NCBI GenBank assembly: GCA_017484125.1
Contig: JAFUTV010000008.1
Span: 1 to 55,918 of the forward strand
DNA: 55,918 nt
Reading direction: 5' to 3'
From: Bacilli bacterium
Lineage (GTDB): Bacteria > Bacillota_I > Bacilli_A > RF39 > UBA660
Part shown: positions 3,798-55,918 of the stretch, one piece after another
How positions within the stretch are numbered: position 1 is the stretch's first letter
How the letters are laid out: each line of letters begins with the position of its first letter
Translations under genes and position numbers: made by a program
Notes under the pieces: model-generated
The model's database searches: none
Told to the model about the DNA's origin: nothing
The model's input: the letters and a program-made list of their open reading frames with translations, nothing else

Positions 3798-4517
3798 GTG
3801 AGTAAAAAGAAAAAAAATTGTATTCATTGTAATGAAGAAATTAGTAGTAATTTAATGCTATGTCCTTATTGTGGACATAGAACAACGAATAATAAATCTA
3901 ATAATAAATTATTTCCTATTATTTTAGTTATAACAATTATTTCTATTTTTTTAGTAGCAATAATTGCGGTTGCATTTAATAATAGTTTACAAAACAATTT
4001 AGATATTAACAATGTTTATAATAATGATAAATTAAATAAGAATAATACTAATTCAAATAGTAATAAATCCAATTCAAGTGATAACATAACCATAAAGAAG
4101 GAAGATGGGTTTATAAATACTAAATCAAAGGTAGTTAATAGTTTTGTAAATAATATTTTTAGTGATTTAAATGATAATTTGATTTTAGCTAATTTAGTGC
4201 AAAATGATATATATATGGTTACTTACATGGGAAAGAATGAAATTGATGGAGAGTTTATAACTTTTATTTTTAAAGAAGATGGCTCCTTTTATGAAATGAA
4301 TTTTACTTATTATAAAAATAATTCGAAAATTATGGAAGATGTATATAAAGTATTAACATATTCAAAATTTGCTTTTTCTTCATCTGATATTGAAGAAATC
4401 AAATTATATTTAAAAAATGAATCGTCTGGTGGTAAAAGTATTAAATATGGTAATTATTATATAAAAGTAACAAAATATAATAATTCAACATTATATATTA
4501 GATCAACTGAATGGTAA
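3798..4517 (+). CDS. Zinc-ribbon single-pass membrane protein
   Basis: The start is taken as GTG at 3798, because GGGTGA lies 5 bases upstream, the same signal type as in the next two genes. The protein begins with a zinc ribbon (CIHC ... CPYC, residues about 8-26). One transmembrane helix follows near residues 38-63, then an Asn/Ser/Lys-rich linker. The extracellular domain has about 140 residues and is of unknown function. It overlaps nothing upstream and its stop lies 20 bases before the next start. The neighbouring gene has the same layout, so the two proteins may form a pair. I cannot assign a function. Confidence 0.7.
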   Translation: MSKKKKNCIHCNEEISSNLMLCPYCGHRTTNNKSNNKLFPIILVITIISIFLVAIIAVAFNNSLQNNLDINNVYNNDKLNKNNTNSNSNKSNSSDNITIKKEDGFINTKSKVVNSFVNNIFSDLNDNLILANLVQNDIYMVTYMGKNEIDGEFITFIFKEDGSFYEMNFTYYKNNSKIMEDVYKVLTYSKFAFSSSDIEEIKLYLKNESSGGKSIKYGNYYIKVTKYNNSTLYIRSTEW

Positions 4518-13642: not shown

Positions 13643-15370
13643 TCATTCCTCCTTATTTTCAATTTGTAAAATAGTAAATATTTCTTTATTAAACTTTGAA
13701 CTCTTTTCTTGTGGAATAATTTCAATAATATCATCTCTATAATTATTAATATCAAATAACAAAGAATCAATTTTTGTTTCCTTAATATTATAATAATCTC
13801 TTAAGTTAGAAATATATTTTTGGGTATCTTCTTCATCCTTATATGATGATAGTAAAACATCTTTTTTTTCTAAATTGATGACCATATCAAAGCAATCATT
13901 TCTAAACATATAACCTATATTTTCTATTTCATTTTTATTAAATGATATATTTAAAATATTAACACTATAATCATGATTGATACTTATTTCTATTTCATTA
14001 ATGTACTTATTTATGATAAATTGTTTTTGATCTTTTGATAATTCTAACCATAAATTATGTGTTTTAACATAATTAGATTTATACTTCATTTTTTCTATTT
14101 CTTTGGCATTAAACAACAATTTATAATCTTGATTATTAATCATATTTTCTTTTAAATTTTCAAGTTCAATTAATTTTTTTTGAGTTCTTTCTATATCAAG
14201 TTTTATTTGATCTAATTCATTTTTTAAATCATTAGCTTCTAATATTCCATCAATAAATGCTTTTTTTATTCTATTTTCTTTATCTAATAATTCTTGTTTT
14301 AGTTTTTTATATTTTTTTAAATCATTTTCAGTATCTATACTAACTTGTGGTTTAAATGAATTATCAATAATTAAGAAAAAATCTAGCATATCATTTAAGA
14401 ATTTAATTAAAGATTTTTCAATTCTTTTTTCATTTATCCTTATATTACAATTAGGACAATAGTAATAGCAATGTTTTTCACCTGATTTACTATTACCTGA
14501 ATTACCACCCATAATTCTTTTACATTTAGGACATTTAATCTTTTGCATAAACATATATATTTGTTTTCTCATATAATTCTTTATATTTTTTTCTTTTCTT
14601 TTTTGTACCATATCAAACGTTGTTTTATCAATAATGGCTGGAACAACATTTTCATATATATTTGTTTTATTAGAAACAATATTACCGATGTATATTTGAT
14701 TTGATAATAATTTATCAACACTAGTAGTAGACCACTTTTTGTTATAAACATTCCTTTGATTAAAGTCTTTACAAATAGAATTAACTGATTTACCTTCCAA
14801 ATAAAGTTTATAAATATCTTTTACTATTTCAGCTTCAATATTATTAATAATTAAATCTTTGCTTTCAAGATTCTTTGAATAACCAAATGGCACTTTACCT
14901 GATATATGTCCTTTTTTATATGCACCAACAAGTCCAAAGATAGTTCTTTCAGATGTCCTTTCTATTTCAAGTTGTGCAAGAATAGTAAGCATCCTTATGA
15001 AAAACTTACCATTAGCATTACTAGTATTAATTTCTTCGGCAACACTTTCTAAATCACAATGATATTCTTCCAAAGTAGTGCAAATTGTTTCCAAATCCTT
15101 AATAGAACGAGTTAGTCTATCAAGCTTATAAACAATTATTTTGTTAATTTTCCCATCTTTCATGTCTTGAATCATTTCTTTAAATTTTGGCCTTTCCATA
15201 TTTTTGGCTGAAACTCCTTCTTCACGATAGATTTTATAAATATTATATCCTTTAAATTCGCATAATTGTTTTAATTTATCTTCCTGCTCATCTAAACTAT
15301 GCCCAAATCTAGATTGATCTTCAGTTGATACTCTAGGATAAAGGGCAGCATTTACACTTTTTTCTTCCAT
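13643..15370 (-). CDS. Large serine recombinase (site-specific integrase)
   Basis: ATG 15370 follows AAAGGTG. The 575 residues match the large serine integrase plan. The catalytic domain is at 1-150 with YPRVSTEDQ (Ser15 nucleophile, Arg13), the conserved QLEIERTSERT helix and the VPFGY link. A Recombinase domain covers about 165-270, and a zinc ribbon with CPKC ... YYCPNC covers about 285-320. A long coiled coil (about 355-410) precedes the C-terminal part. Such enzymes insert or excise mobile elements between short att sites without needing a helper, except for excision factors. The usual Cys in YxRVS is Pro here, which is not a catalytic position. It is likely the mover of part or all of the 7-15.8 kb block. 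Confidence 0.93.
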   Translation of the reverse strand: MEEKSVNAALYPRVSTEDQSRFGHSLDEQEDKLKQLCEFKGYNIYKIYREEGVSAKNMERPKFKEMIQDMKDGKINKIIVYKLDRLTRSIKDLETICTTLEEYHCDLESVAEEINTSNANGKFFIRMLTILAQLEIERTSERTIFGLVGAYKKGHISGKVPFGYSKNLESKDLIINNIEAEIVKDIYKLYLEGKSVNSICKDFNQRNVYNKKWSTTSVDKLLSNQIYIGNIVSNKTNIYENVVPAIIDKTTFDMVQKRKEKNIKNYMRKQIYMFMQKIKCPKCKRIMGGNSGNSKSGEKHCYYYCPNCNIRINEKRIEKSLIKFLNDMLDFFLIIDNSFKPQVSIDTENDLKKYKKLKQELLDKENRIKKAFIDGILEANDLKNELDQIKLDIERTQKKLIELENLKENMINNQDYKLLFNAKEIEKMKYKSNYVKTHNLWLELSKDQKQFIINKYINEIEISINHDYSVNILNISFNKNEIENIGYMFRNDCFDMVINLEKKDVLLSSYKDEEDTQKYISNLRDYYNIKETKIDSLLFDINNYRDDIIEIIPQEKSSKFNKEIFTILQIENKEE

Positions 15371-15924: not shown

Positions 15925-16001
15925 TGGGGCGAAATGTGGGAATCGAACCCACGCATACCGGAGCCACAATCCGGCGTGTTAACCACTTCACCAATTCCGC
16001 C
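15925..16001 (-). tRNA. tRNA-His (GTG)
   Basis: The minus strand folds as a full cloverleaf: the 8-bp acceptor stem GGCGGAAT/ATTTCGCC includes the extra G-1 to C73 pair that marks tRNA-His. The anticodon loop is TTGTGGC, the T-loop TTCGATT is canonical, and CCA is encoded. It has its own promoter and terminator. The duplicated flank at 7.2 kb lacks the tRNA. Confidence 0.95.
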
Positions 16002-18895: not shown

Positions 18896-18929
18896 AAAAA
18901 AAAAGGCTGCCTTATTTTCTTAAGACAGC
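18896..18929 (-). terminator. Terminator of the sortase gene
   Basis: On the minus strand GCTGTCTTA-AGAAAA-TAAGGCAGC, 9 bp with one G-U pair, followed by nine T. The sortase stop codon lies in the stem. Confidence 0.8.
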
Positions 18930-20501
18930 ATGAACAACAAGTCTTTTATCATTTTCTACACAAGTTGATAATGTTAATATTTTATCTTCACTAGTAATTG
19001 GTGTATCACTTTGAAATATACTTCTTTCTTTTAACATTGATACAAATTCTAAAAATTCATTATCATTACTAAAACTTGTTTGTAAGTAATCGTCTGTTAC
19101 TTTTATACGGTATATAGAGAAGACTTCCCATTCCATTTCTTCATACATTGTATTGTAATAAATAGAAATATTTTTAGCTTCACTATACCAATTTTCTTTT
19201 GCAACGTTAGATAGTGTTCCAAACATAACACCACTATAATATCTATTATGAGCAAACAAAATTGTATTTTTATCCAAATCTTTTGAATTATTAAGATAAT
19301 TCATATATACCCAACCATTATAATCTTTTTTCTTATCATAATTATGATCTAAATAATAATCATTGTTATTTGTTTTAACAATTGGATAATCTATATTAGT
19401 TCCTGGTACTTTTAACCAACCAACAGTTTCATCATTAAGATCTAATAAACTTCTCATTTTAGGTATCATTTGGTTTTCTAGAGGAACTGCAGGTATATAA
19501 TTATTATCTTCAATTACTTCTGGTATTTCCATTTTCTTTTCTTCCTCAGCATTATCTGCAGCAATTTTTTCTTCTATTCTTTGACTTATTTCTTGAACAT
19601 TTTTTTCTGATTCTTTATTGTTTAATATAACATATATAGTAGAACCTGATGCAATAACTAAAACCATAAAGGCACATAATATTAGTGTAGAAGATATTAA
19701 TTGTTTAAAAAAGTTTTTACTTACATATTCTTTAGTATAACTAAGTATTAAATCAATATGTTCTTTTTTATACATTTTCTTTTTCTTTTTTAATTCTTCT
19801 ATAATTTCTTTACTAGTTATATTATCTTGTATTATTATACGTATTCCTTTTATTCTGTTTTCAATTAAAATACGAGCCATATCTTCAACTGCGCTTAAAG
19901 AGCATGCATCAAAAGTAATAGTTTTTAAATATCTATTTATCTTAATAAATGCCTCAAAGTCTTTTGTATCTTGTGCATTCATTGGTGGTGATACTTTCAA
20001 GGCTGATTTATAATATATCTTTGAATATGATATTAAATTATTAAGTTCCATAAAATTACTTGTATATAAAATTTCTGCACGAGATTCTATTTTTATATTA
20101 GATTTATCAAATAAATCAATCATATATGTTGGTATAGAATAGCAACTTATTGTTTTAAATTTCTTTAAATTAGATAATATTTCATAAGCTTCATAGGTGA
20201 AGTTACTTTCATCACTAATAAATAAAGTATCAACATTATCTATTACCTCAAATGATGATTTTAATATTTTTAAAATTTCTAAGTTAGTTATTACTACTCT
20301 TGATATTGTTTTATTGATAATTAATTCTTTAATAAATAGTCCAACTATTTTAGAGTTTTCTATAATATAATCATCAGAAAATATCAATTTGTTATCTGAT
20401 ATAATATTTGTGTTCATTAAGTCTTTAACATCTTCAATTAATTGATAATTAAATGTAAAAATTAAGGAATTATTTTTAATAGCAATTAATACTTTTTTCA
20501 T
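18912..20501 (-). CDS. srtB: Class B-type sortase with a large N-terminal domain
   Basis: The C-terminal 190 residues are a sortase: NIDYPIVKTNNNDYYLDHN, FAHNR with His418, TLSTC with Cys514, and DKRLVVHAV with Arg520. The long insertion before TLSTC and the DYPIV/YYLDHN segments fit class B. The enzyme cleaves sorting signals and links surface proteins to peptidoglycan. A transmembrane helix at about 269-293 places the active site outside. Unusually, about 265 residues precede the helix, with alternating strands and helices, presumably cytosolic; typical SrtB proteins have only a short tail there. ATG 20501 follows GGTGG. Its probable substrates carry NPxTGD, one of them encoded divergently at 20639. 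Confidence 0.88.
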   Translation of the reverse strand: MKKVLIAIKNNSLIFTFNYQLIEDVKDLMNTNIISDNKLIFSDDYIIENSKIVGLFIKELIINKTISRVVITNLEILKILKSSFEVIDNVDTLFISDESNFTYEAYEILSNLKKFKTISCYSIPTYMIDLFDKSNIKIESRAEILYTSNFMELNNLISYSKIYYKSALKVSPPMNAQDTKDFEAFIKINRYLKTITFDACSLSAVEDMARILIENRIKGIRIIIQDNITSKEIIEELKKKKKMYKKEHIDLILSYTKEYVSKNFFKQLISSTLILCAFMVLVIASGSTIYVILNNKESEKNVQEISQRIEEKIAADNAEEEKKMEIPEVIEDNNYIPAVPLENQMIPKMRSLLDLNDETVGWLKVPGTNIDYPIVKTNNNDYYLDHNYDKKKDYNGWVYMNYLNNSKDLDKNTILFAHNRYYSGVMFGTLSNVAKENWYSEAKNISIYYNTMYEEMEWEVFSIYRIKVTDDYLQTSFSNDNEFLEFVSMLKERSIFQSDTPITSEDKILTLSTCVENDKRLVVHAVLRK

Positions 20502-46189: not shown

Positions 46190-49100
46190 ATGAAATTAAA
46201 TTGTTTTTATAAATACAATCTAGACTTTATTATTAAATTAGCAGTAATACTAATTTCTTTTTGTGCCTTTAATTATACTGTATTGGCTGGTAACTTATCT
46301 TCTTTAGAAGTAGTAGGCTATGAAAATGATCTAACGCCAAGTTTTGATTCAAATATAACAAATTATGAACTTTGGATGTCACCATATGATATTGATTTAA
46401 ATATTAACGCAACTGCATTTGATCCTAATGCGCAAATATCAATAGTTGGAAACAAACATATAAAAGATAGTGCAATTATTACAATTAATGTTTCTGCACC
46501 AAATGTAGATGATACATTATATGAAATAAATGTTCATAAGGCATCCCCATTAGAAAATGGGACATATTCATATACTGGCGGTGTTCAAACATTTGTTACA
46601 CCATATACTGGTGAGTATCAATTTGAAGCATGGGGTGCTTCTGGTGGAAAAGGATATGTTACTTATTCTGGACATAGTGCTAGAATAGAAAATGATTATG
46701 GTAGAGGTGCATACACTGAAGGTAAAATAAAATTAGATAAAGGAACAACGCTTTATATCTATGTTGGTGGAAAAGGTACTCAAGGAACTAGTATGAGTTC
46801 TGTTCCAGCTGGAGGATATAATGGTGGTGGAGCAAGTTCTGGTAAATCAACTGATAATAATGAAGTTGGTGGATCAGGTGGAGGTGCAACTGATGTTCGT
46901 ACTATAAATGGAACTTGGAGTGATTCACAATCACTAGCTTCACGTATTATGGTTGCCGCTGGTGGAGGCGGTGGATGTACAACAGATTTAAATTACACTA
47001 ATCAAATTCAAGGAATGATGGGTGGAGCACTTGCAGCAACTGGAACAATTTCTTGTTGGACAACTGCATGGACTCCTGTAGTTAATCAAACATCTGGAAA
47101 TGCCTTTGGTAAAGGTGCAACTGGAATAGTATCTGCTCTTTCTGGTGCCGGAGGAGGCGGTGGATACTATGGTGGTGTTAGTGTATCTGGATGTGGTAAG
47201 GCCTCTGGAGGATCATCATTTATTTCAGGACACACAGGATCTGTTGCTGTTACTTCACAAACTGATATAACACCAAGAAAAGGAACAAATGATAGTACTT
47301 GTTCTAATGGAACAACAGATGATTTATGTTCTAAACATTATAGTGGGCTTGAATTTTATGATACAAATATGATTTCTGGAAATTTATCTATGCCAAATAC
47401 TGCAGGTACTGCAACTGAAACCGGTCATACTGGAAATGGTTTCTTAAAGATTACTGAACTTCAAACAAAATCAAAAGACAATTATTTAGAAACATTAACA
47501 ATAGATAATGGAACATTATCTCCATCTTTTGATCCTACAATTGAAACATACACATTATCACTTAGTAAATATGATCAAAACTTTACCATTGATGCAACAT
47601 TGTCTGATGCTGAAAATGCAACAGTTACAGGTTTAGATTATTTTGAAATTGATGCCGGTGAAACTAAAACAGTTGAATTATTAGTAACGTCAGAATCAGG
47701 TGACGTTAGAGTATATAATATTGCAGCAACTAGAGCAAATTTAAATCCTGGTGAACATTCAACATTATTAAAAAAATTAATTATTAACAACGAGAAATCT
47801 TCATTAGATCCAATTTTTCATCCTGAGAAAACCAATTATGAAGTATCTATTTTAGAAAGTGATATTGATTTGTCAATTAGTGCTGAGCCATTTGATGAAA
47901 ATGCAACAATTAGTATTATTAACGACAAACATATCAAAGGGTATACTGGAAATGTAACCTTGAAAGTAAGTGAAGAACATTGTGAGGATACTATTTATAC
48001 ATTAACTTATGTAAAAGATAATAAAAATATTTCAGGATATACTTTTGATTACACTGGCGAATATCAAGTATTTGAAGCTCCATATTCAGCAACATATAAA
48101 GCAGAATTATGGGGAGCTTCCGGTGGAAATGTTTATGCTACTTATATATCTAGTTGGCCTGGACAAGAAAATTTACATGGAAAAGGTGGATATACTGCTG
48201 GGGAAATTCAATTAAACAAAGGCGATAAATTATATGTGTTTGTTGGTGAAGCCGGAATGAAACCATCTGGATTAAGTGCCACAGTTCATGGTGGATGGAA
48301 TGGTGGAGGAAAATCTCTTCCATCTAGTGATTCTGATGATTATGCAGGTACTGGTGGTGGAGCAACAGATATTCGTCTTTCTCCAACATCTTCAAAAACT
48401 ATTTGGAATGAATTTGATTCATTAAAAACAAGAATAATGGTAGCTGGAGGAGGCGGAGGATCTGCTGTTGCTAGATATAATAATTATTCAGCTGGAATGC
48501 ATGCTGGTGGTCTTAGTATTTCTGGAAAATTATCTAATTGGAATACTGAATGGACTCCAGTAGTTAATCAAACAAGAGGTTATAAATTTGGAATTGGTGC
48601 TGATGGTTGTCAATCATATCTATCTGCTGGAGGTGGCGGAGGTGGATACTATGGTGGCGTTCAAAAAGGAGATTCTAGTGATTCTGGTAGATCTTCTGGA
48701 GGATCATCATATATCTCAGGACATACTGGTTGTAACTCCATTTCACAAACATCAACATCTTCTAATATAATTCATACTGCCTCAAGTATTCATTATAGTG
48801 GAATAAAATTTGAAAATACAAAAATGGTTGATGGTGCTGGATATAATTGGACTACTGCTAGAACAACTCAAAGTGGAATGCCAACAATTGATGGTAATTC
48901 AACAGAAATGGGACATGATGGAAATGGATATGCAAAATTTAGTGTTGCTAAATTATATTCTAAAGATAATTATTTATCTCTAATTCAAACAAACAAGGGT
49001 GTATGGGATAAAGAATTTGATCCTTTAGTTCAAGATTATACAATAACTTTAGAAAATGAAGACTTTGATATTTTAGTTGAAGCAAGACCAAGCAATGATT

Positions 49101-52100
49101 ATGCAGAAATATCAGGAATTGGTACTCATAATATTCCTGCAGATATTAATAATGATCCACAAGGACCAACAAATATCGATATTACTGTAACTTCAGAAAA
49201 TGGTGATGTAAAAATATATACATTACATGTAACAAGACAACCTAATTCAAATAAATATCCAAAGGATATAGTTATATCAGGTCTTATTCCATCATATTGT
49301 GAAAAAGATGAAGAATATTGTCAAATAAATCCTGCTAAATTTAATCAAAATGTAACTGATTATGAATTGACAATTCCATATAAGATTAAAGAAATTTTCT
49401 TTAATGTTGAGAAAAATCATTTATATCAAGATGTAAATGGTGAAGGTTCAGTATCGGTTAAACCTAATTCAAATCTATTTACTGTTGTTATAACAAGTGA
49501 AGATAAATCAGGATTTAGTTTATATAATTATTATGTTACTAGAGATATGACTGGTGATAATGACTTATCAATATTAAATGTTTTATATCCAAATATAGAT
49601 TTAAACTTTGACCCAGATATAACAGAGTACTATTTTAATGTACCAAATAATGTTGATAAATATGTTCTTAATTCAAGTAACACATACAATAGTTCTATAG
49701 AAGATACAATGCAACTATATTATGAAACAGATGATACTAATGCTCAAAGTTTTATGTTAGGTGATGGTAATCTTAAAATAGGACAAAATGTTATTCCAAT
49801 AATGGTTGTGGCTCAAAATGGTGAAACACAAACTTATACTTTAAATGTTTATAGAGAACAAAACTCAAATATCTATCTTAATTCTTTAGAAGTTAAATCT
49901 ACTGATGATACTATTAATTATGATTTAGTACCAGAATTTAATAAAATAAATTTTGGAAAATATAAGGTAGTTGTACCAAAAGAAATAAGTGAAGTAAAAC
50001 TACTTGCTACTGCTGAAAGTGCAACAACAACGGTTGCAGGTACAGGAACAAAATCATTAGATAAAGGAGATAATATTTTTGAAATAATAACAACAAGTCA
50101 ATCTGGCGATGTTGAAACATATATTATTAATATTATTAGAGAAAAAGATAATAACACTAATATTTCATCATTAATTGTTAATATTGATGATGTAACTACA
50201 GCTTATTCTCCATCTTTTGATCCCGATACAATAGAATATAGTTTAACAACTCCAATCGGAGCAGATGAAGTTGATTTCCAATTAACTCTGGAAAGTGAAC
50301 TTTCAACATATGAATTACTTGATGATAATATTATAAGAGTAGGAACAAACTTAAAGAGAATATTAGTAAAGGCTGAAGATAATACCACTAAGACATATTA
50401 TGTATCAATATATAGACCAGCAGATACAAATAATAAATTAAGTTCTTTAAGAGTATCTAATGATGTACAAGAATTCTCTTTATATCCAGAATTTGATGCT
50501 GAAGCAAATTATGATCATTTTTCATTGATTGTTGAAAATGAAGTTAGCTGGGTAAATGTTCATGCAGAAAAATACTCAAATCAAGCAGTTATAACAGGTA
50601 ATGGTAAATATAATTTAACTGTTGGCTTAAATGAAATACTAATTAAAGTTAAATCTGAAAGTGGAGATGATAAGGTTTATCAAATAAATATAACTAGAAA
50701 GCCATCATCTAATGCTTATCTAAAACTAATAACTACAAATGTTGGCGTTTTAGTTCCAACATTTGATAAAGAAGAATTAAATTATTCAATTAATGTTGCT
50801 AATAATGTAGAAAGTATTAATGTATTTGGAACTCCTGAAGTAAAAACAACTACAGTAACTGGAAACAGAACATATAGTCTAGTTGCTGGAGAAAACAATA
50901 TAGTATTAACAACATTAGCACAGGATAATGCAACAACACTAACTTATAATATTAAAGTTATTAGGGATGAATCAAATAATACTAATCTTAGTGATCTATA
51001 CTTAAAAGAGGCTAAATTAAGTCCTGATTTTGATAAAAATATAATAGAATATACTGCAAAAGTTCCTTATGATGTAGAAAATGTAAATGTAGTATATGAA
51101 ACAGAAAATAATGATGCAACTGTTGAAATAAGTGGAAATACAAATCTTGTTGTAGGTGAAAATAATGTTTTAGTTAAAGTAACAGCACAAGATGAAAGTG
51201 AAAAAACTTATACTATTAGAGTAATAAGGCAAGAAATGAGTGAGTTTAGCACATATCTTTCTTCACTAACAATAAGTGATGGAAGTCTTGATCCAACATT
51301 TAATAAGACAAATCAATTCTATGAAGTTGAAGTTCCATATACTACCACTCAAATTACACTTAATGGTATTTCTGAAGATGAAAATGCAACTGTTGAAGGA
51401 AATGGAACACATGATTTACATACAGGAAATAATTTATTTACTATTAGAGTAACAGGACAAGATGATAAAATTAGAGATTATCAAATCCTAGTTAACAGAT
51501 TAAAAAATGATGAAGCTAGATTATCTAATGTTGCAATTAATAAAATGAGTATTAACTTTGATAAAGATATATATACTTATGATGTAATTACTAAAGATAA
51601 TAGTTTAGATTTTACTACTATTACTCCAATGGATCCAAATGCAACATATGTTATTGATGGTAATGCATGGAAAGATATGGGTAATTATGTAGTTAAAATA
51701 ATAGTAACTGCAGAAAATGGTACTTCAATTAAAGAATATATCTTCAATGTTGAGAGAATTGAAAGTGATAATGCTAATCTCATCTATTTAGATGTAGAAA
51801 ACTATTCTATAGCTCCAGAATTTAATAAAAATATATTAAACTATGATTTAGAAACTCAAGTAGATAATGAAATATCATCAGTAAATATAATTGCTACAAC
51901 TGAAGATACGCATGCTAGTATATCAGGGGATGGACTTCGTTCATTAAATGTTGGTGATAATTATCTTCATATTGATGTAACAAGTGAAGATGGAACTTTA
52001 AAAAGATATACAGTCTATGTTTATAGAAAAGGATCAGATAATAATAAAATTGATGTTTTAGAAGTATTAAATGGTGTTATGCTTCCATCATATGATGAAA

Positions 52101-55100
52101 ATACATCAATATATGAAGTAAGAGTACCGTATGAAGAAACATCGCTTAATTTAAATATTGTACTAAGTGATCCAAATGCAACTTATGCCGTGTATTCAAA
52201 TTCTAACTTTAGAGAAGAAGGAAATAATATTGTAAGAATTGTTGTAACTTCTGAATCTGGAAAAACAAGAACAATATTATTAAATGTTTATAGAAACGAA
52301 GCAATTTCAGCATTATTAACTGATATTGAAATAGAAAATTATAAGGTGCTTCCAAATTTTGATAGGTATACATTTAACTATAATGTAATAGTTGACTATG
52401 AAGTTGAACAATTATCATTTAAAAATATTAAAATGTTAGATAAACAAGGTACATATACTATAAATGGTAATGAAAACTTTAGTGTTGGAAATAATACGGT
52501 AACTATTAATACATCTTCACGTGATAATACTAAACATGAAACTTATACATTAAATGTAATAAGACAGTCATATGTTAATAATTTCTTGAGTCAATTACAA
52601 ATAAGTGAGGGAGAATTTACTCCTGAATTTGATAAATATACATTAACATATGATGTGTATGTTGGAAATGATATTGAAAATATTACACTATCAGCAATAC
52701 CAGAGGATGAAAATTCAGTAGTAACAGGACTTGGAGAAATACCACTTATTACTGGTAAAAATGAATTAGTAATTGGAGTTACAAATTCTGGGGTAAGAAG
52801 AAATTATACAATTAATGTATATAAAGAAGATGAAAATAATAACTATTTAATATCATTAATTGCCAAAGTAAATAATACTACACAAATATTATCTCCAGAG
52901 TTTGATTCAAAAACTTATGAATATGCAATTAATGTACCAGCATCTACTGATAAAATTAATTTAATTGGTACAATAAGTGATGGGGCTACAGTTACTGGAC
53001 TTGGAAATAGAGATATATCTTTAGGAAATAACACATTAGAAATAATAGTTAAATCTAAATCAAATAAAGAAAGAAAGTATACATTAAATATATATAGACC
53101 AATATCTAATAATGCAGATGTATTGTCTATCATTCCATCAAGTGGAACACTTTCACCAACATTTGATAACACAGTTAAAACTTATAACTTATATGTTAAA
53201 TCAAACGTAGATAAATTATCATTTACGGTTAATAAGAGTGATAAGTTTGCTAGTGTTGAAGGAGAGGAAGAATTAGCACTACCTGTTGGTACATCTCAAA
53301 GAAAAGTAATAGTAACTGCTGAAGATAATACTACAAAAAATGAATATACATTTATTATTACAAGAGATAGACCAGATAATGCAGATCTTTTACAATTATA
53401 TGTTAAAAACTATGATTTTGAAGAAGAATATGATCCAAATATATTTACATATCATCTTACAGTACCAAATTCAAAGACAGTTTTAACTCCAGATGATGTA
53501 GTTGCTATTTCTCAAGATTCAAATGCTAAAATAACTAAACAATCTCAAATCAATCTTTCAACAAAGACTGAAAATGAATATTTAGTTAGTGTAACATCAT
53601 GTGATAAGAGTGTAACTAATGAATATAAAATAATAATAACAAGAGAAAAATCTAACCTTACACAACTTGATACACTAACATCTGATCGAGGTAGACTTGC
53701 ACCAACATTTAATCCAGCAAATAGGGTTTATAACTTATTTGTTTATGAAGATGAGACTGAAGTAGTACTTGATGCAACAACATCAAGTGATGATATAAAA
53801 ATACTTTCTGGAATTGGTAAAGTAGTATTAACTGAAGAAAATACTGAACATAAAATAGTAATTCAAGCCGAAGATGGAACAATAGAATTTTATACAGTAA
53901 ATATTCATCGTAATATTAAAACTGATGAAGGCCTTAATGATTTAGGACTAAATTATGATGAGAATTTAGAATATTTAGATTCTGAATTTGTACTTTCACC
54001 AACGTTTGAAACTAATACATTGTCATATACTATAAATGTTCCATATGAATATAATATTCTTGATGTTTATTATGAAGAACAAAATTCTCAACAAATAGTA
54101 AAAATAATTGTAGATGATGAAGAAGTTGAAGATTATGAACTATTAGTTGGTGAAAATAATATTCAAGTTGAAGTATATGATGGATTAGGTAAACATACTA
54201 AGACATATAACTTAAAGGTAATAAGAGCAAAATCAAGAAATACATATTTAAAACAATTAAATATAGAAGGATACCAATTAGAACCTGCATTTAATAAATA
54301 TATTCAAGAATATTATATAAGAGTTCCAGCAAGTGTTACTGATTTAGATATTGAAGATATTATTGCAATACCTGAAGATCCTTTATCAAGAGTAACAATA
54401 AGTGGATATAGATATTTAGTTGAAGGCCTTAATGATTTAACAGTTGAAGTGGTAAGTGATTCTAGAACCGTTCGTGAATATATTGTTCATGTAATCCGTG
54501 GCGAAGATAAACTAAGTGATTTAAAAAACATAACAGTATCAACCGGAAAATTCTGGCAACTATCACCAAAGTTTAAATCTAATATTTATGATTATAGTGT
54601 TGCAATTCCAGGAATTTATACAAAAGCAACAGTTGAGGCGGTTGTAGATGATTCAGATCAAATTGTTATTGTTGGAACTGGTGAATATAGTTTAACAGTA
54701 GGTAATAATGTTGTTACTTTAACATCAACTTCAAATATTACTGGTCAAGTAAGTATATATACAATCAATATTATTAAAGAAGCAGATGAAGATGTTGACC
54801 TTATAAGTTTATCTGCTCTTGAAGGAACACTATCTCCAAAATTTGATAGATCAACAAATAAATACACTATGAATGTAGGTGAAGATGTAGATGAATTAAC
54901 GTTAAGTTATACTACCTCAGCTAAAACAGCAAAAGTATATGTTGTTGGTAATCAAAACTTTGTAAGTGGTGAAAATAAGGTTAATGTTGTTGTAACAAAT
55001 TATGAAGGAACAAAAACAAAAACATATCAAATAATAGCTACTAAAGCTAAAAATTCTAACGCTAATTTATCATCAATAAAAGTTTATAATATTATCGATG

Positions 55101-55918
55101 AAAATGAAGTTATTTATCCATTAGATCCAGAATTTAATACATTAGAGCATACATATAATGTTGAAGTAGATTATGATGTTGATAGAGTTATTATAGAAGC
55201 AAAAACAGTGAAAGCCACCACAACAGTAGTTGGCAGTGGAGAAACATATTTAAATTATGGTAATAATCAAATAGTATTAACATCAACTGCTGAAAATGGT
55301 AATACAGTCATATACTATGTTAATATTTATCGTAACTATGATTTGAATTTAGAAAACATAGTAGTTAGTCAAGGAAGACTTTCACCAACTTTTGATAGTG
55401 ATGAAGTTAATTACATTGTTGATGTTCCTTATGAAGTAGAACAAATAACTATTCTTGGAATTCCTTCAAGTAATGATGTTATAGTTACAGGAAACAATAC
55501 ATATAGTTTAAGTATTGATGATAATTACTTTGATTTAGTAGTAAAAGCTCCAGATAATAAAACAAAAACATATCATATTAAAGTAATAAGAGGAAGAGAA
55601 AGAAATAATTACATAAAAGAACTACAAGTAAATGGAATTATAAGTCCAACATTTGATAAACTAATAACATCTTATGATGTAGATGTCAGACCAAATGTTG
55701 ATGAGTTAGATTTAGATATTATACTTGAAAGTGTAAATGCCACATATGAAATTATTGATAATCATTTAAGTGAAGATAATAATCCAAATAGAGTAACTAT
55801 TAGAGTAACTGCTCAAAATGGAGATACAAGAGATTATAAATTAGATGTAATGGTAAGAGATTGGACATACTTCTCAAATAGACTTCGTGACTTACAAGTT
55901 AACCATGGACAATTAACA
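46190..55918 (+). CDS. Giant secreted protein: two ALK/LTK-like glycine-rich domains and about 28 cadherin-like repeats (3' partial)
   Basis: The frame from ATG 46190 stays open for 3243 codons to the last base, so the gene continues beyond the window. Residues 1-33 are a signal peptide (IIKLAVILISFCAFNYTVLAG). A first cadherin-like beta-sandwich unit (SSLEVVGYENDLTPSFD) is followed by glycine-rich domain 1 (about 122-421: TYSYTGGVQTFVTP, YEFEAWGASGG-type strand, TLYIYVGGKG, GGGATDVR, RIMVAAGGGGG, GGGGGYYGG). Two more sandwich units precede glycine-rich domain 2 (about 615-924). From there to the end 25 or more repeats of about 85 residues follow, each with LSPxFD, a YxVxVP strand, GxxxLxxGxN, V.AEDG, and YxIxVxR. 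The 5' ribosome site is weak (TTAGGT). No anchor can be seen; it lies beyond the end. Likely a cell-surface adhesin or stalk. Confidence 0.9.
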   Translation, partial: MKLNCFYKYNLDFIIKLAVILISFCAFNYTVLAGNLSSLEVVGYENDLTPSFDSNITNYELWMSPYDIDLNINATAFDPNAQISIVGNKHIKDSAIITINVSAPNVDDTLYEINVHKASPLENGTYSYTGGVQTFVTPYTGEYQFEAWGASGGKGYVTYSGHSARIENDYGRGAYTEGKIKLDKGTTLYIYVGGKGTQGTSMSSVPAGGYNGGGASSGKSTDNNEVGGSGGGATDVRTINGTWSDSQSLASRIMVAAGGGGGCTTDLNYTNQIQGMMGGALAATGTISCWTTAWTPVVNQTSGNAFGKGATGIVSALSGAGGGGGYYGGVSVSGCGKASGGSSFISGHTGSVAVTSQTDITPRKGTNDSTCSNGTTDDLCSKHYSGLEFYDTNMISGNLSMPNTAGTATETGHTGNGFLKITELQTKSKDNYLETLTIDNGTLSPSFDPTIETYTLSLSKYDQNFTIDATLSDAENATVTGLDYFEIDAGETKTVELLVTSESGDVRVYNIAATRANLNPGEHSTLLKKLIINNEKSSLDPIFHPEKTNYEVSILESDIDLSISAEPFDENATISIINDKHIKGYTGNVTLKVSEEHCEDTIYTLTYVKDNKNISGYTFDYTGEYQVFEAPYSATYKAELWGASGGNVYATYISSWPGQENLHGKGGYTAGEIQLNKGDKLYVFVGEAGMKPSGLSATVHGGWNGGGKSLPSSDSDDYAGTGGGATDIRLSPTSSKTIWNEFDSLKTRIMVAGGGGGSAVARYNNYSAGMHAGGLSISGKLSNWNTEWTPVVNQTRGYKFGIGADGCQSYLSAGGGGGGYYGGVQKGDSSDSGRSSGGSSYISGHTGCNSISQTSTSSNIIHTASSIHYSGIKFENTKMVDGAGYNWTTARTTQSGMPTIDGNSTEMGHDGNGYAKFSVAKLYSKDNYLSLIQTNKGVWDKEFDPLVQDYTITLENEDFDILVEARPSNDYAEISGIGTHNIPADINNDPQGPTNIDITVTSENGDVKIYTLHVTRQPNSNKYPKDIVISGLIPSYCEKDEEYCQINPAKFNQNVTDYELTIPYKIKEIFFNVEKNHLYQDVNGEGSVSVKPNSNLFTVVITSEDKSGFSLYNYYVTRDMTGDNDLSILNVLYPNIDLNFDPDITEYYFNVPNNVDKYVLNSSNTYNSSIEDTMQLYYETDDTNAQSFMLGDGNLKIGQNVIPIMVVAQNGETQTYTLNVYREQNSNIYLNSLEVKSTDDTINYDLVPEFNKINFGKYKVVVPKEISEVKLLATAESATTTVAGTGTKSLDKGDNIFEIITTSQSGDVETYIINIIREKDNNTNISSLIVNIDDVTTAYSPSFDPDTIEYSLTTPIGADEVDFQLTLESELSTYELLDDNIIRVGTNLKRILVKAEDNTTKTYYVSIYRPADTNNKLSSLRVSNDVQEFSLYPEFDAEANYDHFSLIVENEVSWVNVHAEKYSNQAVITGNGKYNLTVGLNEILIKVKSESGDDKVYQINITRKPSSNAYLKLITTNVGVLVPTFDKEELNYSINVANNVESINVFGTPEVKTTTVTGNRTYSLVAGENNIVLTTLAQDNATTLTYNIKVIRDESNNTNLSDLYLKEAKLSPDFDKNIIEYTAKVPYDVENVNVVYETENNDATVEISGNTNLVVGENNVLVKVTAQDESEKTYTIRVIRQEMSEFSTYLSSLTISDGSLDPTFNKTNQFYEVEVPYTTTQITLNGISEDENATVEGNGTHDLHTGNNLFTIRVTGQDDKIRDYQILVNRLKNDEARLSNVAINKMSINFDKDIYTYDVITKDNSLDFTTITPMDPNATYVIDGNAWKDMGNYVVKIIVTAENGTSIKEYIFNVERIESDNANLIYLDVENYSIAPEFNKNILNYDLETQVDNEISSVNIIATTEDTHASISGDGLRSLNVGDNYLHIDVTSEDGTLKRYTVYVYRKGSDNNKIDVLEVLNGVMLPSYDENTSIYEVRVPYEETSLNLNIVLSDPNATYAVYSNSNFREEGNNIVRIVVTSESGKTRTILLNVYRNEAISALLTDIEIENYKVLPNFDRYTFNYNVIVDYEVEQLSFKNIKMLDKQGTYTINGNENFSVGNNTVTINTSSRDNTKHETYTLNVIRQSYVNNFLSQLQISEGEFTPEFDKYTLTYDVYVGNDIENITLSAIPEDENSVVTGLGEIPLITGKNELVIGVTNSGVRRNYTINVYKEDENNNYLISLIAKVNNTTQILSPEFDSKTYEYAINVPASTDKINLIGTISDGATVTGLGNRDISLGNNTLEIIVKSKSNKERKYTLNIYRPISNNADVLSIIPSSGTLSPTFDNTVKTYNLYVKSNVDKLSFTVNKSDKFASVEGEEELALPVGTSQRKVIVTAEDNTTKNEYTFIITRDRPDNADLLQLYVKNYDFEEEYDPNIFTYHLTVPNSKTVLTPDDVVAISQDSNAKITKQSQINLSTKTENEYLVSVTSCDKSVTNEYKIIITREKSNLTQLDTLTSDRGRLAPTFNPANRVYNLFVYEDETEVVLDATTSSDDIKILSGIGKVVLTEENTEHKIVIQAEDGTIEFYTVNIHRNIKTDEGLNDLGLNYDENLEYLDSEFVLSPTFETNTLSYTINVPYEYNILDVYYEEQNSQQIVKIIVDDEEVEDYELLVGENNIQVEVYDGLGKHTKTYNLKVIRAKSRNTYLKQLNIEGYQLEPAFNKYIQEYYIRVPASVTDLDIEDIIAIPEDPLSRVTISGYRYLVEGLNDLTVEVVSDSRTVREYIVHVIRGEDKLSDLKNITVSTGKFWQLSPKFKSNIYDYSVAIPGIYTKATVEAVVDDSDQIVIVGTGEYSLTVGNNVVTLTSTSNITGQVSIYTINIIKEADEDVDLISLSALEGTLSPKFDRSTNKYTMNVGEDVDELTLSYTTSAKTAKVYVVGNQNFVSGENKVNVVVTNYEGTKTKTYQIIATKAKNSNANLSSIKVYNIIDENEVIYPLDPEFNTLEHTYNVEVDYDVDRVIIEAKTVKATTTVVGSGETYLNYGNNQIVLTSTAENGNTVIYYVNIYRNYDLNLENIVVSQGRLSPTFDSDEVNYIVDVPYEVEQITILGIPSSNDVIVTGNNTYSLSIDDNYFDLVVKAPDNKTKTYHIKVIRGRERNNYIKELQVNGIISPTFDKLITSYDVDVRPNVDELDLDIILESVNATYEIIDNHLSEDNNPNRVTIRVTAQNGDTRDYKLDVMVRDWTYFSNRLRDLQVNHGQLT

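Follow-up and report, generated by a model that had tools for sequence, protein, structure and literature searches.

The glycine-rich domain of the animal ALK and LTK receptors (PF12810; PDB 7lir, 7mzw, 7n00, 7nx0) has a described counterpart at the tips of phage tail fibres. The tail fibre gp24 of cyanophage Pam3, which has been solved, combines a TNF-like domain with a glycine-rich domain similar to that of C. elegans ALK, and its variable distal tip is proposed to bind host receptors (PMC9608196). Gram-positive adhesins such as the Rib-domain proteins and SraP are built as an N-terminal head on a long stalk of tandem beta-sandwiches and carry an LPxTG foot. Cellulosomes use cohesin-dockerin contacts for anchoring, as in the scaffoldin adaptor ScaB (PDB 3l8q, 1qzn).

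We analyzed a stretch of 55,918 nt (the window; G+C 21-31%), the whole of contig C9 in the 33-contig, 1.18-Mb assembly of an uncultured Bacilli bacterium. A giant open frame at its 3' end encodes a protein that resembles each of these systems in part. With the ALK/LTK receptors it has in common detectable sequence homology and the best PDB fold matches, but it has neither a kinase nor a transmembrane receptor, its glycine-rich domains sit in a bacterial stalk context, the global TM-scores are only 0.27-0.46 and the ligand surface is not comparable. ALKAL-type ligand binding is not expected in a bacterium. The glycine-rich phage tips (Pam3 gp24, S16 gp38; PMC9608196) offer a conserved glycine framework, variable loops and a proposed role in recognition, whereas the giant is a cellular secreted protein with a long beta-sandwich stalk and not part of a virion. 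The repeat-stalk adhesins are alike in signal peptide, N-terminal head and tandem stalk (fold matches 6s5y, 8yke, 4m03); the giant differs in its PF12733 units, its glycine-rich heads and a predicted dockerin that replaces the LPxTG foot. Like cellulosomal proteins, the giant is predicted to end in a type I dockerin, and cohesins matching ScaB occur. In contrast to the cellulosome, the giants have no recognised enzyme domain, and the arrangement points to adhesin display and not to cellulose degradation; another dockerin protein of the same genome has an SH3 domain and a region weakly resembling the glucosaminidase SagB. The giant is a new combination of known parts, probably a dockerin-footed adhesin with glycine-rich heads. 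Our literature searches, which were not exhaustive, found no published description of such a protein and no paper joining RF39 and dockerin.

Domain layout of the giant and its glycine-rich heads

The frame lies on the plus strand and runs without a stop from 46181 (TTG) or 46190 (ATG) to the last base, 55918, a length of ~9.7 kb. Counted from the ATG it encodes 3,243 aa up to the window end; a sequence-only reading had placed the start at 46190, which is right if the ATG is used. In the Pfam-A scan the giant matches the cadherin-like family PF12733 (E 3.5e-156, 508.6 bits against a cut-off of 24.2, 26 stretches) and the ALK_LTK_GRD family PF12810 (E 3.3e-93, 312.6 bits against 24.5, two stretches), with no other family above cut-off, and NCBIfam has no family for it. 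Both PF12810 copies also exceed the curated cut-off in the genome scan. A 9.7-kb frame with such matches is not a product of chance. Elsewhere in the window, a serine recombinase with resolvase and recombinase domains (13643-15370, minus strand) lies near tRNA-His (15925-16000).

The protein begins with a signal peptide (residues 1-33, 46190-46288 from the ATG; hydrophobic stretch at about 9-33). Head module A follows, consisting of cadherin-like unit 1 (46325-46540), glycine-rich domain 1 (46601-47458, E 7.6e-51) and unit 2 (47510-47734). Head module B repeats this order with unit 3 (47798-48016, 43% identical to unit 1), glycine-rich domain 2 (48089-48937, E 1.5e-46) and unit 4, which doubles as the first unit of the stalk. 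The two modules span residues 36-520 and 527-1022 and are 45% identical; their glycine-rich domains are about 47-50% identical. The stalk (units 4-28, 48998-55852) has a period of ~90 aa. A profile made from the giant's own units counts 28 of them between residues 46 and 3221, each with an i-E below 1e-3 and the weakest at ~1e-14. The sequence-only reading had claimed an open frame lacking a stop, a signal peptide, duplicated glycine-rich domains and about 28 cadherin-like repeats, arranged as a head on a long stalk. All of this stood: both families are recovered by HMM search, and the layout is supported by the domain order, the models and the unit comparison given below.

A model of glycine-rich domain 1 (pLDDT 87.7, pTM 0.90) returned ALK/LTK structures as all of its top 21 PDB fold matches, at probability 1.00 but with the low TM-scores given above, so that there is no tight global superposition. 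Against a viral fold library the best query TM-score was ~0.64, and the matches include virion structural and tail-fibre proteins. Based on the glycine-rich profile, the matches to solved structures are C. elegans ALK (7lir, 7e-8), human ALK (7mzw, 1.9e-5) and human LTK (7nx0, 7e-3). The ALK/LTK label of the sequence-only reading is a Pfam name; it is apt as a statement of homology to the ALK domain, with no sign of a kinase or of a cytokine ligand. In the glycine-rich alignment the glycine columns are more conserved than the others (mean entropy 1.04 bits, versus 1.87 elsewhere), with variable loops between them. Because of the ALK/LTK and viral tail-fibre matches, the conserved glycines with variable loops, and the Pam3 parallel, a recognition head is the best reading of these predicted domains.

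The head fold is common to phage tail-fibre and virion proteins (PMC9608196), as would be expected if the giant were phage-derived or a prophage tail protein with a glycine-rich receptor-binding tip. We consider this origin very improbable, given the signal peptide, the long beta-sandwich stalk and the dockerin tail of a homologue, and given that the upstream neighbours look like housekeeping genes and that co-linear relatives exist in another species.

Giant homologues and the open 3' end

A paralogous giant is present on contig C6 of the same genome. The stalk units of the giants are position-matched, with identities above those among units within one protein. Units 5-19 of the window giant correspond to units 4-18 of the C6 giant, and units 20-28 to 21-29 (48-94% identity), the C6 giant having two extra stalk units. 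Units 4-26 match units 6-28 of the second giant in the same-genus genome G003 (37-72% identity). Within the window giant, by comparison, units have a mean identity of 27% and a maximum of 45%. Patches of 82-94% identity between the window and C6 giants suggest gene conversion. A model of two stalk units (pLDDT 86.7) has PDB matches among Rib tandem domains, SraP and protocadherins. Their global TM-scores are low, at most 0.44, which is perhaps to be expected where tandem units are flexible.

The C6 giant reads for 3,055 aa to the break and leaves its contig on the same final residues as the window giant. The last 141 nt of the window (55778-55918) are identical to the start of C6, read on the reverse strand and broken at the same codon, and the similarity continues at 93% identity over 301 nt. 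Among the stretches compared, the only other occurrence of the window's terminal 25-mer is the start of C6. No continuation of the end of C9 was found in the assembly, nor any 3' contig that joins the window directly; the ends of contigs C19 and C26 have no terminal overlap with C9 or C6. Contigs C19 and C26 overlap each other exactly by 119 nt. Overlaps of 141 and 119 nt equal what we take to be k-mer steps of MEGAHIT, a common metagenome assembler. Because these exact overlaps match assembler k-mer steps, the missing stop is most likely an assembly break at a repeat common to two paralogous genes and not biology, and what is missing was probably collapsed into a short contig that escaped binning. 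The case is a warning for metagenome assemblies, in which giant paralogous genes can be cut at shared 3' parts.

A contig that breaks in a repeat common to a paralogue could also mean that the giant frame itself is a chimera, a false join of repeats. We judge this highly unlikely, since the unit order is co-linear with the C6 paralogue and with giants of another species, at per-unit identities above the within-protein mean. The sequence-only reading had named an assembly join past the window, combined with a lack of domain support, as grounds for giving up the giant; a join is partly real, the domain support is overwhelming, and the giant stands.

The probable tail can be traced through G003, which encodes a complete giant of 4,213 aa with a C-terminal dockerin. 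The last 871 residues of the window giant align to residues 2402-3275 of this homologue (46% identity). The window's genome also has two orphan dockerin 3' ends, each at the end of a contig with its frame open upstream: C26:65061 (427 aa) and C19:21251 (129 aa). Over 129 aa they share 96% identity, and in the alignment to the complete homologue they cover residues 3799-4213 and 4087-4213, respectively. Pfam recognises Dockerin_1 (E 1e-10) and Big_2 in the C26 tail, which by sequence also matches solved dockerins (2yik, 4e-8). From these alignments, the window giant would own one of the two candidate tails. If the parts are co-linear, the gap from the window to C26 amounts to ~520 aa, and the protein would probably have ~4,190 aa. 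Because the two contig-terminal 3' ends encode the homologue's tail, the full giant is probably about 4,200 aa long, with a dockerin foot and no NPxTG or LPxTG signal.

The sequence-only reading had suggested a sortase (NPxTG) ending. The genome has three sortase genes, one of which is in the window (18912-20501, minus strand; a 529-aa protein with a C-terminal sortase domain), as an adhesin with an LPxTG or NPxTG signal in its missing tail would need. That ending now appears quite improbable, since a dockerin closes the complete homologue as well as each of the candidate 3' ends, and the available part of the window giant has no LPxTG/NPxTG motif. Across the available parts of the giants (the C-terminus of the window giant lies beyond its contig), there is no LPxTG-like motif and no membrane helix beyond the signal peptide.

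Candidate cohesin partners and the proposed mode of anchoring

The window's genome encodes four dockerins and one Pfam cohesin. This cohesin (C3:2156-2506, PF00963, 35.4 bits versus 24.1) is on a 256-aa secreted protein with no clear transmembrane segment. In 19 of 19 genomes inspected, the window's own included, a dockerin protein directly adjoins one that combines a cadherin-like unit with a membrane helix at its C-terminus. These membrane-helix partners nearly always have a signal peptide; one frame lacks it, owing to the choice of start. Eleven N-terminal domains, of which nine belong to membrane-helix partners and the other two to small cohesin proteins, were combined in a profile that hits ScaB cohesins whose structures are known (E 4e-10). 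In G003 a Pfam cohesin is on a membrane-helix protein adjoining a dockerin giant. In the window's genome the corresponding position is taken by membrane proteins on C19 and C26, but their N-terminal domains are divergent and Pfam does not call them cohesin; the profile comparison A4/A5 (99.2%) takes in the signal peptide and the sandwich as well. Of 60 relatives, 36 have a dockerin, 19 a cohesin and 19 a glycine-rich domain. We infer that the window giant is docked at the membrane via a cohesin.

The reading that we favour, with fair confidence, is a secreted giant adhesin with glycine-rich heads on a sandwich stalk and a dockerin foot on a cell-surface cohesin. In this proposal, the recognition head would consist of the pair of glycine-rich domains close to the N-terminus, both flanked on either side by beta-sandwich units, and the long stalk of about 25 further sandwich units in the window and several beyond it. 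The C-terminal Big_2 and dockerin foot would dock, probably with calcium, onto a cohesin-bearing protein of the cell surface. Held far from the membrane, the heads could attach to a partner, for example a glycan or protein of the host, a particle of food or a different microbe. We infer both the binding of the dockerin to a cell-bound cohesin and the binding of the heads to any particular partner.

Alternatively, the giant could be released as a matrix or scaffold that cross-links cells or mucus, its dockerin recruiting it to other secreted proteins and not to the cell. Two observations fit such a role: the genome's recognisable cohesin belongs to a small secreted protein that has no clear transmembrane helix, and the giants lack a membrane helix beyond the signal peptide. 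We consider it unlikely, as cohesin or cohesin-like proteins with C-terminal membrane helices adjoin dockerin genes in every genome inspected, and in G003 the neighbour of a dockerin giant carries a cohesin that Pfam itself recognises.

Extending the cell-bound adhesin to the family, we tentatively propose that these genome-reduced Bacilli use a non-cellulosomal cohesin-dockerin system as a general surface display, although we would put this at somewhat under an even chance. Giant adhesins with ALK-type heads and a dockerin foot would be held by cohesins in the membrane, and so would a putative peptidoglycan hydrolase, an arrangement that would replace sortase anchoring for these proteins. The dockerin-footed adhesin, if borne out, would show by what means Bacilli with a very small genome assemble surface fibres of great length, anchored by a non-covalent plug as opposed to a covalent bond. 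The ligand-binding domain of the ALK receptor would also take its place in a broader group of adhesin tips from microbes and phages, making its original binding function testable.

Two further dockerin loci of the window's genome were noted. On contig C26, L112:3377-6490 (minus strand) encodes a protein with an SH3 domain, a SagB-like region (E 2.5e-17, far below the model's cut-off) and a dockerin, and adjoins a protein with a signal peptide, cadherin-like domain and membrane helix; a pair like this recurs in all relatives inspected. At G000:C19:10958-20958 (G000 being the window's genome), a 1,985-aa cadherin-like dockerin protein is followed by two cadherin-like membrane proteins. The G003 orthologue of the first of these has a different, Pfam-recognised N-terminal cohesin and is 63% identical over the remainder, an apparent domain swap judging by the alignment.

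Glycine-rich domains on other proteins

The number of heads varies among the giants, with two in the window giant, one in the C6 giant, and two and three in the giants of G003. A wider relative, a Bacilli MAG from roe deer (L113), encodes nine glycine-rich domains within the N-terminal 4,800 aa of a frame that exceeds 5,900 aa. Scanning the collection of genome contigs with the glycine-rich alignment retrieved 77 loci, and scanning it with the N-terminal 943 aa of the giant gave no matches. Giant glycine-rich proteins in L064, L065, L068, L115, L117 and L180 were set apart, as they have no cadherin-like units in the parts searched. L064 (1-13398, plus strand, contig G042:C6), the only one of them scanned with Pfam, is a frame of 4,466 aa whose start is open; its two glycine-rich domains sit on a body of List_Bact repeats and a LamG-like lectin. 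This body is different, and therefore glycine-rich heads ride on more than one type of giant stalk.

Smaller proteins of the window's genome also carry the domain. On contig C12, L041:4653-7895 (plus strand) encodes a 1,080-aa protein with the N-terminal methylation motif of type IV pilins and a C-terminal glycine-rich domain. At G000:C6:9423-30411 (L039, L040), 26 small secreted ORFs form one strand-consistent array with a common N-terminal module, which consists of a signal peptide ending in SVFA|YS followed by DVGFTPxDxxWxVxNxxEALDDL. Their C-terminal domains are swapped and include four glycine-rich, three discoidin (F5/8 type C) and one H-type lectin domain, among others. The C6 giant begins with the same N-terminal module, which has 43 matches in the window's genome and 25 in G025.
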